Below, one piece after another: positions 3,038 through 31,082 of a DNA stretch of 39,987 nt. A model generated the notes under the pieces. That model ran no database searches. It saw nothing but the letters and a program-made list of their open reading frames with translations, and was not told the DNA's origin. The position numbers and the translations under genes are program-made. Source of the DNA: Geodermatophilus sp. DF01-2 (GTDB lineage Bacteria; Actinomycetota; Actinomycetes; Mycobacteriales; Geodermatophilaceae); contig NZ_SPQN01000033.1 in NCBI RefSeq assembly GCF_004571065.1, positions 1 through 39,987 of the forward strand. Direction: 5' to 3'. Within the stretch, counting starts at the first letter, position 1; the number at the start of each line of letters is the position of its first letter.

Positions 3038-3804
3038 GCAAGCACCGGGCACCGGTCGGTGGCCGCCGTCGTCTGACGACGGCGGCTACCGCCGTACTCG
3101 CCGCCACCGGCGCCGGACTTATCGGCCTCGGGGTGGCGAGTCAGCAGGCGCCGCCCTCGCTGGCCGGCGGGCTGCGCGCGGCTGCGGTCGCCGAGCCGCC
3201 CACCGGCGCGGGGCAGGCCGGCGGCACGGGGGAGGGGGGCGCACCGGCCTTCGCGTCCGGGGCGGGCGCGCCGGGGCAGCCGGAGTCGGTGGCGAGTGCT
3301 CCCGTCCCCGAGGAACCCTCCCCGCCGATCTCCGGTCCGCTCCTGGGCGAGGCCGAGCCGACGGCGCTGGAGGTTCCCTCGATCGGACTCCGGACGGACG
3401 GACTGGTGCCCCTCGGCCTGATGTCCGATGGCTCCATGGAGGTGCCGGCGGACTACGACCGGGCCGGTTGGTACCGGCACGGTCCCACCCCGGGGGAGCT
3501 CGGGCCGGCAGTGCTGGCCGGGCACGTCGACTCGGCGGCCGAGGGACCGGCCGTCTTCTTCCGGCTGGCGGAGCTGTCGCCGGGCGCGGAGGTGCTGGTG
3601 ACCCGGGCGGACGGGCAGACGGCTGTCTTCGCCGTCGAGCGCGTCGAGCAGTACCCCAAGGACGAGTTCCCGACCCAGCGGGTCTACGGGGACATCGACC
3701 ACGCGGGCCTGCGGCTCATTACCTGCGGCGGCGCGTTCGACCCGGCGACCGGCCACTACCGCGACAACATCGTCGTCTACGCCCGGCTGGCCGACGTTCG
3801 GTGA
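3034..3804 (+). CDS. Class F-type sortase, probable CTG start
   Basis: Membrane-anchored transpeptidase of the sortase fold. Catalytic residues are visible: His in LAGHVDS (about 164), Cys in LITCGG (about 231) and Arg in YRDNIVVY (about 243). The first conventional start, GTG 3133, would delete the signal anchor. Reading back in frame gives SKHRAPVGGRRRL and the hydrophobic stretch TAATAVLAATGAGLIGLGVA, and the only start-like codon before the in-frame stop at 2929 is CTG 3034. That CTG overlaps the upstream TGA as CTGA, mimicking the ATGA/GTGA couplings elsewhere. I therefore place the start there (256 aa). A Pro/Gly-rich linker separates anchor and catalytic domain. Its likely substrate is the adjacent CHRD-like protein (inference from position). 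Confidence 0.85.
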   Translation: MSKHRAPVGGRRRLTTAATAVLAATGAGLIGLGVASQQAPPSLAGGLRAAAVAEPPTGAGQAGGTGEGGAPAFASGAGAPGQPESVASAPVPEEPSPPISGPLLGEAEPTALEVPSIGLRTDGLVPLGLMSDGSMEVPADYDRAGWYRHGPTPGELGPAVLAGHVDSAAEGPAVFFRLAELSPGAEVLVTRADGQTAVFAVERVEQYPKDEFPTQRVYGDIDHAGLRLITCGGAFDPATGHYRDNIVVYARLADVR

Positions 3805-10272: not shown

Positions 10273-11013
10273 GTGCAGCGCACCCCGACCCGCAGCGTTC
10301 TGCTGGCCGCCACCTCCAGCCTGGCCATCACGCTCGGCGCCTGCGGCTCCGCCGACACCGCGTCGGACAGCGCGGCCACCGACACCGGTGCCGGCACCTC
10401 GTCGTCCGGCCCGGAGACCAGCCCGGAGACCGGCCCGGAGACCAGCCCGGAGACCAGCCCGGAGACCAGCCCGGAGACCAGCCCGGAGACCAGCATGGAC
10501 AGCGGCACGGACATGGCCTCCGACGAGCCCTTCGGCGAGTCCTGTGCCCAGGTCCCCGCCGACGGGGAGGGCAGCTTCACCGGCATGACCGACGACCCGG
10601 TGGCCACCGCGGCCAGCAACAACCCGGTGCTGTCCACGCTGGTGCAGGCCGTCATGCAGGCGGGCCTGGTCGACACGCTCAACAGCGCCCAGGACGTCAC
10701 CGTGATCGCCCCGGCGAACCCGGCGTTCGAGGCCGTCCCCGCCGACCGGCTGCAGGCGGCCCTGGCCGACCGGGCCCAGCTCACCGCGATCCTGACCCAC
10801 CACGTCATCGACGGTCGTCTTGCCCCCGACGAGCTGGTCGGCACGCACACCACGCTCGCCGGCGAGGAGGTCACCATCGAGGGCTCCGGTGAGACGTTCA
10901 CCATCGACGGCACCGTCACCGGCGAACCGGCGTCGGTGATCTGCGGCGACGTGCAGACGGCGAACGCCACCGTCTACATCGTCGACCAGGTGCTCGCCCC
11001 GACGGCTCCCTGA
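10273..11013 (+). CDS. Fasciclin-domain lipoprotein
   Basis: Exported lipoprotein with one fasciclin (FAS1) domain, related in type to mycobacterial MPT70/MPT83. The lipobox is LGAC (SLAITLGACGS), so the mature protein starts at Cys about 24. A linker with seven 4-residue repeats (SPET/GPET) spans about residues 46-73. The FAS1 domain begins near residue 90 (DDPVATAASNNPVLSTLV) and contains the two conserved blocks, VTVIAPANPAFEAVP and LTHHVIDGRL, ending NATVYIVDQVLAP. GTG 10273 follows AAGGAGAT. Only one FAS1 domain is present (246 aa). It probably acts in cell-surface adhesion or envelope stress; in mycobacteria homologues are controlled by SigK/RskA, which are not seen in this window. Confidence 0.93.
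   Translation: MQRTPTRSVLLAATSSLAITLGACGSADTASDSAATDTGAGTSSSGPETSPETGPETSPETSPETSPETSPETSMDSGTDMASDEPFGESCAQVPADGEGSFTGMTDDPVATAASNNPVLSTLVQAVMQAGLVDTLNSAQDVTVIAPANPAFEAVPADRLQAALADRAQLTAILTHHVIDGRLAPDELVGTHTTLAGEEVTIEGSGETFTIDGTVTGEPASVICGDVQTANATVYIVDQVLAPTAP
10408..10491 (+). repeat. Seven 12-bp tandem repeats inside the fasciclin lipoprotein gene
   Basis: Unit (A/G)GCCCGGAGACC, seven copies, coding (S/G)PET. Length changes by one unit would keep the frame and alter only the stalk between the lipid anchor and the FAS1 domain. Confidence 0.95.
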
Positions 11014-12542: not shown

Positions 12543-12608
12543 CCCGCGAGATCTGCACACTCGGGGTCATCAGGCTGCTGAAGGCCCCGAGTGTGCAGAT
12601 CTCGCGGG
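12543..12608. terminator. 24-bp perfect hairpin between pyrE and the FAD oxidase gene
   Basis: Arms 12543-12566 and 12585-12608 are exact inverted copies (they begin CCCGCGAGATCTGCACACTC), with an 18-base loop that can itself pair partly (TCA...TGA). It starts 2 bases after the pyrE stop and ends 14 bases before the -10 box of the next gene. It is much longer than a terminator needs to be. Confidence 0.9.
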
Positions 12609-20670: not shown

Positions 20671-20713
20671 GCGGAGTCGCTGGGTGACGGTTTCCGTCAT
20701 CCAGCGACTCCGC
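20671..20713. terminator. 20-bp hairpin exactly between convergent purA and glycerophosphodiesterase stops
   Basis: GCGGAGTCGCTGGGTGACGG, loop TTT, then CCGTCATCCAGCGACTCCGC: a 20-bp stem with one G-T wobble. It starts on the base after the purA stop and ends one base before the opposing stop, so it can serve as a bidirectional terminator with no spare sequence. Confidence 0.9.
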
Positions 20714-26271: not shown

Positions 26272-26280
26272 TCCCCGCGC

Positions 26281-26340
26281 CGAGCGCTGCGAACTCGTGG
26301 CCATCACGGCCTGATCGCCACGAGTTCGCAGCACTCGACG
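26281..26340. repeat. 60-bp palindromic repeat, left copy
   Basis: Arms 26286-26301 and 26317-26332 pair perfectly (GCTGCGAACTCGTGGC with GCCACGAGTTCGCAGC). Pairing extends inward (ATCA/TGAT) and outward (CGAG/CTCG) past single mismatches, leaving a 5-base loop. It lies 9 bases after purC, where it could terminate transcription, but a 56/60 identical copy lies at 27281 on the other side of the next gene. Confidence 0.95.
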
Positions 26341-26392
26341 GACCTGTGGACGACGCCAGCGAGCCGACGCCGTTCCGGGGCAGGCTCCGCCG

Positions 26393-27274
26393 GTGCCCAC
26401 GCCTCCGGTCCCGCCCCGTGTCACCCGGCCCACCGACCGGCGCCGAGCGCGCCGGGAGGGGGTGAGCGACTGGCACCTGCGGCACCGTGGGGTGGTCCGC
26501 ATGTCGCGCGACACCTATCTGCCGCGGGCGTCCGTGGACGATGTCCGGTCCCGCGTGGCCGCCGTGCTCCTCGGCGCCCCTGCGTCGGCCGTCGTCAGCC
26601 ACCTGACCGCGGCCTCTCTGTGGGGCTTCGAGGTGCCGCTCGTCCGGAACGACCCCCGGGTCCACCTGACTGTGCCGCCGGGGGTGGGCATCCGGCACCG
26701 CGCCGACCGGCGGGTGCACCGGGCCGCGCTGGCCGACTGGCAGATCGCTCGCCGGGCCGGGTTCCGGGTCACCTCGCCGGGGCGCACGTGGCTCGACCTG
26801 GCGGCCTCCCTCCCGCCGGCGGCCCTGCTGGCGGCCACCGACCAGATGCTGGCCCGCCGGTATCCGCGGGTGGCGTTCGAGCGGCTGCTGGAGGCCCGGC
26901 GTGGCGCCCGCGGTGTCCGTACGGCCCGACGGGTGCTCCCGGTGGCGGACCGGCGGGCGGGGTCGCCGATGGAGTCCGTGCTCCGCTGGTTCGTCCACGA
27001 GGCCGGGCTCCCCGCGCCGGACCTGCAGTACGTGGTGCGGGACGCCGCGGGCGCCTTCCTCGGGAAGGTGGACATGGCCTGGCCGGAGCAGCGGGTGCTG
27101 GTGGAGTTCGACGGCGACGTCCACCGAGAGCGGCGCGTCTTCGTCGAGGACGTCCGGCGGCAGAACGGCCTCGTGCTCACCGGCTGGACCGTTCTCCGGT
27201 TCACCTCGGCTGACGTGCTGGGGCGCCCCGAGCGGGTGCTGGAGGTGCTCCGGACGGCGCTGGCCGCCGGCTGA
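26393..27274 (+). CDS. AbiEi-like N-terminus with PD-(D/E)XK-type (DUF559-like) nuclease C-terminus
   Basis: 293-residue protein. The N-terminal half is a winged-helix/AbiEi-like region (WHLRHRGVVRMSRDTYLPRA, AVVSHLTAASLWGFEVPL, GRTWLDLAASLPPAALLAAT). The C-terminal half (about 205-293) has the pattern of a Vsr/DUF559-type endonuclease: SPMESVLRWFVHEAGLP, then KVDMAWPEQRVLVEFDGDVH, then RRQNGLVLTGWTVLRFTSAD. The Glu, Asp and Glu-x-Asp residues are candidate metal ligands. Such proteins are numerous and scattered in actinobacteria; activity is mostly unproven. It interrupts the purC-purS junction and is bracketed by two palindromes. Start GTG 26393 is chosen because the usual N-terminal extension precedes the DWHLRHRG motif; GTG 26462 is possible. 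No cognate toxin gene is adjacent. Confidence 0.8.
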   Translation: MPTPPVPPRVTRPTDRRRARREGVSDWHLRHRGVVRMSRDTYLPRASVDDVRSRVAAVLLGAPASAVVSHLTAASLWGFEVPLVRNDPRVHLTVPPGVGIRHRADRRVHRAALADWQIARRAGFRVTSPGRTWLDLAASLPPAALLAATDQMLARRYPRVAFERLLEARRGARGVRTARRVLPVADRRAGSPMESVLRWFVHEAGLPAPDLQYVVRDAAGAFLGKVDMAWPEQRVLVEFDGDVHRERRVFVEDVRRQNGLVLTGWTVLRFTSADVLGRPERVLEVLRTALAAG

Positions 27275-27280
27275 GGACAC

Positions 27281-27340
27281 CGAGTGCTGCGAACTCGTGG
27301 CCATCACGGCCTGATCGCCACGACTTCGCAGCGTTCGACG
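27281..27340. repeat. 60-bp palindromic repeat, right copy
   Basis: Matches the copy at 26281 in 56 of 60 bases, in the same register. Changes at positions 5, 53 and 54 keep the outer stem pairing through G-T wobbles, while the change at position 44 introduces one mismatch. It starts 7 bases after the nuclease-like gene and ends 49 bases before the purS -10 box. Confidence 0.95.
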
Positions 27341-27388: not shown

Positions 27389-27394
27389 TACCCT
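27389..27394 (+). promoter_or_regulatory. -10 box (TACCCT) for leaderless purS
   Basis: TACCCT ends 7 bases before GTG 27402, with no Shine-Dalgarno. It gives purSQL its own promoter downstream of the inserted gene. Confidence 0.6.
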
Positions 27395-30998: not shown

Positions 30999-31026
30999 CG
31001 GGTCCGGTAGGACCACGAACGACGCA

Positions 31027-31061
31027 GCGCGCCCCCGTCCGGACGTCGGACGGGGGCGCGC
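31027..31061. terminator. 15-bp perfect hairpin, bidirectional terminator
   Basis: GCGCGCCCCCGTCCG (31027-31041), 5-base loop, CGGACGGGGGCGCGC (31047-31061). It lies between the convergent SCP-like gene and the MFS small-subunit gene and probably serves both. Confidence 0.85.
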
Positions 31062-31082
31062 TCTCGTCGGTGCAGGCTTCGC

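Follow-up and report, generated by a model that had tools for sequence, protein, structure and literature searches.

The window analysed here is the whole stretch of 39,987 nucleotides from Geodermatophilus sp. DF01-2 (contig NZ_SPQN01000033.1). As the original prediction had placed it, a nuclease-like gene lies in the window between purC (SAICAR_synt, 1.6e-72) and purS (PurS, 1.9e-24), both assigned by Pfam, and it is bracketed by two palindromes. The features referred to below are:

12543 to 12608, no strand: single dispersed palindrome, type a, immediately following a phosphoribosyltransferase-domain gene.
26278 to 26340, no strand: upstream palindrome, type d, with two inverted half-sites of about 26-28 bp, CGAGYGCTGCGAACTCGTGGCSATCA.
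26344 to 26351, plus strand: CTGTGGAC motif, in the gap that separates the gene from the upstream palindrome.
26381 to 26386, plus strand: CAGGCT, 6 nt 5' of the GTG start and possibly the -10 box of a leaderless promoter.
26393 to 27274, plus strand: AbiEi-like / DUF559 (Vsr-like) nuclease gene, 293 aa.
26411 to 26950, plus strand: part with the AbiEi-antitoxin fold, residues 7-186, predicted DNA reader.
26963 to 27271, plus strand: nuclease domain with the Vsr/I-Bth0305I fold, residues 191-293, with conserved E194, R198, D227, E238, H244, D253 and R256.
27280 to 27340, no strand: downstream palindrome, type d, starting about 5 nt past the stop codon.

The two palindromes keep the same register at a spacing of 1000 bp, and 56 of 60 letters agree between 26281-26340 and 27281-27340. 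The up/down flank similarity score of the gene was 52.2, compared to a mean of 15.6, a 99% point of 25.4 and a maximum of 35 for the same geometry elsewhere in the window (n = 898). The matched pair that had been predicted was thus borne out. Both copies were among the top three by score of the window palindromes longer than 55 bp. The best (26.5) was the palindrome at 12543-12608, and its type is the family that brackets a homologue on contig C142 of the same genome. Shorter hairpins were seen at 20671-20713, 31026-31062 and 3057-3091, with no link to the nuclease-associated palindromes.

Of 75 homologues, 69 have a CTGTGGAC-like motif, on either strand, close to their start; none of 75 control windows has one. 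Exact CTGTGGAC was found near 0 of 30 dispersed palindromes. We take the motif to resemble part of a high-GC DnaA box, or a promoter element. CAGGNT-like boxes before a GTG recur, by eye, in many homologue upstream regions, a recurrence suggesting that the CAGGCT box is a possible promoter. The predicted separate promoter for purSQL did not appear in a sigma-70 scan, though a TACNNT-like box recurs before purS in five gene-less congeners with a purS leader that were compared. A TACCCT box at 27389-27394, 5' of purS, is consistent with such a promoter.

The two-part protein that had been predicted was recovered with profile models. AbiEi models matched residues 32-157 (2.4e-13) and 28-166 (3.8e-13), the DUF559 model matched with an E-value of 9e-9, and the best folds were AbiEi and Vsr/I-Bth0305I. 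Of the solved structures, the homing enzyme I-Bth0305I matched the nuclease domain best, tied with 3hrl. Among 22 family members, Pfam found DUF559 in 16 and MTES_1575 in 15; together with the window protein the matches comprised DUF559, MTES_1575, AbiEi_1, AbiEi_4 and one DUF2726. No transposase domain was found by Pfam in any of these proteins, in agreement with the prediction. E194, R198, D227 and R256 were invariant in 74 proteins, E238 was conserved in 99%, and H244 and D253 each in 93%. We equate the set E194/D227/H244/D253, presumably, with the letters of EDxHD.

Homologues were present in 99 of 118 genomes sampled from the class, the window's own genome included. Twelve homologues were studied in the own genome; another count gives 13 matches, and at least one homologue may therefore be absent from the 12. 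Close relatives occurred once in 72,556 plasmid records, in none of 50,697 phage records and in no viral contigs, searches that miss distant relatives. We rejected phage or plasmid cargo as an explanation because close relatives are almost absent from those records. In genome G013 (contig C14, 629130-629606), two adjacent partial matches in different frames lie beside a type-b palindrome and are probably a broken homologue.

The bracketing extends well beyond the window. In the own genome, 8 of the 12 homologues lie between matched flanking repeats, every pair different (7 of 11 scored together, plus the homologue on contig C132, scored separately); the remaining homologues have a palindrome on one side only, two unlike palindromes or none that is clear. 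Across the genus, 47 of 75 homologue loci in 24 genomes scored above 25.4, the 99% point of the window null, compared to 2 of 107 control genes taken from the same fetched loci (Fisher 2.5e-21), and 28 scored below it. These 75 loci come from 24 of 26 genomes, are a subset of the matches listed, and include orthologues, so they are not independent. The starting set held 84 loci, from which nine without a tblastn match were removed, namely seven junctions that lack the gene, L176 and L060, the last of which is a homologue and was bracketed on later scoring. One of the two control genes above the threshold was a missed homologue; the other, at 10273-11013 of the window, had coding and leader similarity and no palindrome. 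Palindromes were found on both sides of 36 of the 47 passing loci, on one side of 10 and on neither side of 1.

Similar results were obtained in 19 other actinobacterial families, for which the null was built from cross-locus comparisons (n = 3204, 99% point 19.4): 45 of 60 loci exceeded that point, and at least one passing locus was found in 16 of the 19 families. The maximum of this null, 78, came from loci of different families with a common palindrome. By other cut-offs, 38 of the 60 loci scored above 25.4, 31 scored at least 30, and 15 did not exceed their own 99% point. The passing 45 had palindromes on both sides in 23 cases, on one side in 13 and on neither in 9. Nine of an initial 69 loci had been dropped as too short, and some gene starts were estimated. 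Where flank similarity was seen and no palindrome detected (1 of 47 and 9 of 45 loci), the palindromic nature of the flanks is presumed and not proved. Chance bracketing was rejected by the window null, the cross-locus null and the control genes; the bracketing of AbiEi/Vsr-like nuclease genes by their own palindromes is the rule and not an accident. The single case first described is therefore real, but the pattern is family-wide, and other DUF559 genes proved to be bracketed as well, though diverged ones by different palindromes of their own. At L051 (own contig C101, 47146-47212), a third palindrome of the C101 type sits some 500 bp further out than the upstream one, making three near the gene.

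The palindromes vary with the protein. At 18 purC-purS loci the up/down score was 34.2 within a locus and 14.4 across loci (0 of 10,000 permutations), although upstream copies of related species can exceed the up/down likeness within a locus, partly via a common leader. For 46 bracketed loci, palindrome similarity correlated with protein identity (Mantel rho 0.37, 0 of 2000). Among pairs of proteins with 75-100% identity (38 pairs), 92% had a palindrome in common, compared to 21% of 136 pairs at 60-75%, 2% of 97 pairs at 45-60% and 0 of 764 pairs below 45%. The two flanking copies thus change in step with the diverging protein. Around most genes of the P0001 group, four half-sites of about 26 bp are readable, and among 22 proteins of this group half-site similarity correlated best with the winged-helix part (0.67), followed by the AbiEi-like part (0.61) and the nuclease domain (0.45); this order, like the coupling itself, is confounded by common descent. 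At L125, L127, L136 and L137, type-c half-sites enclose a nested palindrome, e.g. CGAGATCACGTGATCTCG, and by eye outer and inner arm modules appear to have been swapped between palindrome families.

The palindromes might be no more than terminators that chance has placed on either side of the gene, a view favoured by the position of most dispersed copies at gene ends (see below). The controls contradict it, as do the match from flank to flank, the specificity for the gene and the coupling to protein sequence. Neither was a terminator with a T-tract found around the window gene, nor were G-U pairs in excess. The original prediction had read G-T wobbles as a sign of selection on structure, and this did not hold: stem mispairs of the G-T and A-C kinds were about equally frequent in five sets (18 v 24, 23 v 16, 25 v 23, 28 v 19 and 11 v 10; p 0.24 to 1). 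Among 51 type-a copies, the pairs 11/42 and 13/40 covaried beyond every shuffle and the other varying inner positions did not. This set was drawn from four genomes, with three copies of another length excluded, and its outer 10 bp are uninformative as they were fixed by the search pattern. A terminator-only function was rejected on the T-tract and G-U results, as was RNA-hairpin selection on the mispairs and the covariation at two pairs only, and a known Rfam family on four matches that all lay below gathering scores. We regard chance terminators as highly improbable.

The arms look instead like two half-sites read on duplex DNA, for a dimer. This reading agrees with AbiEi and Rv2827c, which PMC7319586 describes as binding 23-bp inverted repeats in their own promoters, and with I-Bth0305I, which according to PMC3943268 forms a dimer on a target almost 60 bp long. 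The same AbiEi and Rv2827c precedent would also suit a regulator, whose AbiEi-like domain controls its own gene through the upstream palindrome, the other copies being extra operators or 3' elements and the role of the nuclease being unrelated. In the window protein's gene and those of many close relatives, the upstream palindrome does lie about 115-55 bp 5' of the start. However, a second matched palindrome lies 3' of the stop codon, the upstream copy falls outside the promoter if our leaderless guess holds, and 26 of 30 dispersed copies are downstream of at least one gene and 4 between divergent genes, which is unlike a promoter regulon. An operator role is on this balance unlikely.

These 30 dispersed copies, from four families, were all intergenic, 19 of them between tandem, 7 between convergent and 4 between divergent genes. 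Genes for this placement, and the control genes above, were called with a codon-usage finder, and "intergenic" tolerates an overlap of up to 25 bp. The palindrome of the window gene also stands alone in the genome: it was found at 15 sites of the own genome by similarity, the two brackets included (exact core at 8). Hundreds of copies with no link to DUF559 genes, the outcome that would have reduced the palindrome to a terminator family, were not what was found: there are these 15 sites, and other DUF559 genes have palindromes of their own. Exact-pattern copies per genome numbered 0-8 for type d, 0-17 for type a and 0-12 for type b, and 0 for reversed-pattern controls. The counts are lower bounds; with 40 of 151 candidates scored, there were 75 matches and none on 12 reversed decoys.

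Gene presence went with palindrome abundance in types a and b; for type d the link was not clear. All 5 genomes with a type-a gene have at least four type-a copies away from it, as do 2 of the 21 that lack the gene (p 3e-4); for type b, at least two copies are present in 9 of 9 and 2 of 17 genomes, respectively (p 2e-5). Both cut-offs were picked after the counts were seen. Exact type-d copies away from the gene numbered 7 in G000, 2 in G023, 1 in G012 and 0 in G016, all of which have the gene, and 2-3 in four of 22 genomes without it. This amounts to 3 of 4 versus 4 of 22 genomes for at least one copy (p 0.047) and 2 of 4 versus 4 of 22 for at least two (p 0.22). Exceptions without a matching gene were G018 (14 type-a copies), G012 (six type-a) and G005 (eleven type-b), suggesting that palindromes outlast the gene or do without it; the copies in these genomes and in G023 may be relics or borrowed families.

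Few copies, an active site that is conserved and AbiEi homology to antitoxins would also suit a harmful or defensive enzyme that is restrained by its dispersed palindromes, which would serve as DNA decoys or as allosteric regulators and be kept as protection. Against such a role, the palindromes of five own homologues (on contigs C128, C117, C95, C136 and C11) had no detected dispersed copy, again as a lower bound. We consider it distinctly improbable.

All site comparisons were made between species, not strains. A purC gene was identified in 25 of the 26 genomes. Among 24 congeners, 17 have the gene between purC and purS and 7 lack it there; it occupies this site also in Blastococcus tunisiensis. 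From this distribution the nuclease gene is probably old at the junction. The window protein is 57-68% identical to the 17 congener proteins, compared to 87-96% for PurQ at the same place, indicating that the nuclease protein is evolving fast relative to PurQ. Empty sites with a single palindrome had been anticipated, and 3 of the 7 gene-less junctions (G018, G019 and G020) do hold one palindrome from a family linked to DUF559, and on both sides of it the sequence is like that flanking filled sites. The other four hold no palindrome of such a family. In some species (tested in G018), an alpha/beta-hydrolase gene lies between purC and the junction. The single-palindrome sites fit precise loss by direct-repeat recombination and insertion equally well.

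Among the matches listed, the closest genus relative of the window protein (71% identity, G023) lies outside purC-purS, at the 3' end of a T2SSF-family (tadC-like) gene and between two type-d palindromes. This junction was compared in 25 genomes (L187-L211). The nuclease gene is present in one. In 9 others there is one palindrome that belongs to a linked family or looks like one, of type a in 5 and of other families in G005, G020, G017 and G025. The rest have other hairpins or none. Four genomes have short GCGGCCGCGCACCC-like hairpins here, to which no known gene is linked. One spot thus holds different palindrome families in different species.

Such sites invite comparison with a homing cassette, in which the nuclease cuts the single palindrome of a gene-less allele and repair copies palindrome, gene and palindrome in. 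The palindromes would then be target and homology arm, and the dispersal of single copies would need another cause. The structural match to I-Bth0305I, with its long target, favours this scheme, as does the T2SSF site, where the place taken by the relative is occupied in other species by one palindrome, by a different hairpin or by neither. A homing gene normally splits its target, but here both flanking palindromes are intact, and the near absence of close relatives from plasmids, phages and viral contigs also speaks against it. If the palindrome is the target, the gene does not interrupt it, since whole palindromes stand on both sides in the window and at 36 of 47 passing genus loci. Because the flanking palindromes are intact this is not a usual homing gene, and we find a homing cassette rather improbable. 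The original suggestion of a mobile unit was supported in part. Its pairing of nuclease and palindrome and its likeness in idea to REP/RAYT stood, but there was no target-site duplication, the single sites could equally be deletions, and the gene is probably old at this place. For 23 dispersed copies, the duplication test at k = 4 gave 4 of 23 (null mean 2.1, maximum 7), i.e. no signal.

We propose that gene and palindromes form a cognate pair, which we hold to be very probable. What is observed is the bracketing, the gene-specific sequence, the co-variation of protein and palindrome, a tie between gene presence and copy number in two of the three families tested, the intergenic location, the conserved active site and the palindrome-only sites. 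The nuclease would bind the 60-bp palindrome as a dimer, with one AbiEi-like winged-helix domain on each arm of about 26 bp; such direct recognition is probable. The Vsr/homing-type domain would nick or cut at or near the palindrome under some condition, and host repair of the break would then copy or delete palindromes. Over evolutionary time this would leave a few single intergenic copies per genome and the gene kept between two, an action like that of a REP/RAYT system with an unrelated enzyme. As the best single mechanism, spread through cutting and repair has about an even chance. The proposal taken whole, from cognate pair and dimer binding to cutting and copying or deletion by repair, with binding, cutting and spread as the parts that we infer, strikes us as somewhat favoured. 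More tentatively, and a little short of even, the family may be a self-maintaining repeat system across the Actinomycetes, in which a homing-type nuclease with an antitoxin-fold reader propagates and overwrites its own 60-bp palindromes and each enzyme lineage invents a new palindrome with its genomic population; this would be a second, non-transposase origin of REP-like DNA.

Several known systems resemble parts of this arrangement. A classical transposon or IS differs in that the gene has no transposase match and the 23 dispersed copies lack a duplication signal, and an intrinsic terminator or RNA hairpin differs in G-U tolerance and T-tract. The AbiEi and Rv2827c type IV antitoxins lack the fused nuclease domain and the palindromes on both sides and dispersed; at the window locus no DUF1814 toxin partner, as in the AbiE type IV toxin-antitoxin system, stands beside the gene, whose neighbours are purC and purS. 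The Pfam families DUF559 and MTES_1575 (REase-like) have a similar C-terminal domain, but are defined by the nuclease domain alone, and the descriptions compared state no association with palindromes. I-Bth0305I (EDxHD) shares the Vsr-like core with its conserved acidic and His residues; in contrast, the proteins described here have an N-terminal AbiEi fold, are chromosomal, and have a putative target that is scattered and on both sides and not split by the gene.

In the open-access literature, no link of DUF559 or AbiEi proteins to dispersed palindromes appeared among the matches listed, subscription papers and preprints being mostly outside this search. Within that limited search, what is new is an unrelated enzyme class for a REP/RAYT-like layout. 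A whole bacterial class would then hold a nuclease unrelated to RAYT with cognate palindromes. This gives AbiEi-DUF559 proteins a testable function and could account for part of the palindromic repeats of high-GC genomes. Proteins and their 26-bp half-sites also diverge as natural pairs, which should be useful for learning how a nuclease changes its long target.

The layout matches that of RAYT (TnpA-REP) genes with their REP or REPIN palindromes, for which PMC2817692 gives as recognition criteria flanking REPs, coevolution, fast evolution and an abundance linked to presence. Alike here are an enzyme gene between two cognate palindromes, co-variation of protein and palindrome, fast evolution of the gene relative to its neighbours, intergenic copies and, in two of the three families tested, gene presence with palindrome abundance. 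Unlike RAYT, the enzyme is an AbiEi/Vsr-like nuclease with no match to an HUH-tyrosine transposase, and the two copies stand in direct register, whereas that of RAYT is inverted. The palindromes, mostly about 45-90 bp, are unrelated once the proteins of two genes drop below about 45% identity, and number 0-17 exact copies per genome (a lower bound), compared to usually more than 100 for RAYT. Given the lack of a RAYT transposase domain and the lower copy number, the nuclease-palindrome system is not a RAYT, but it works like one.
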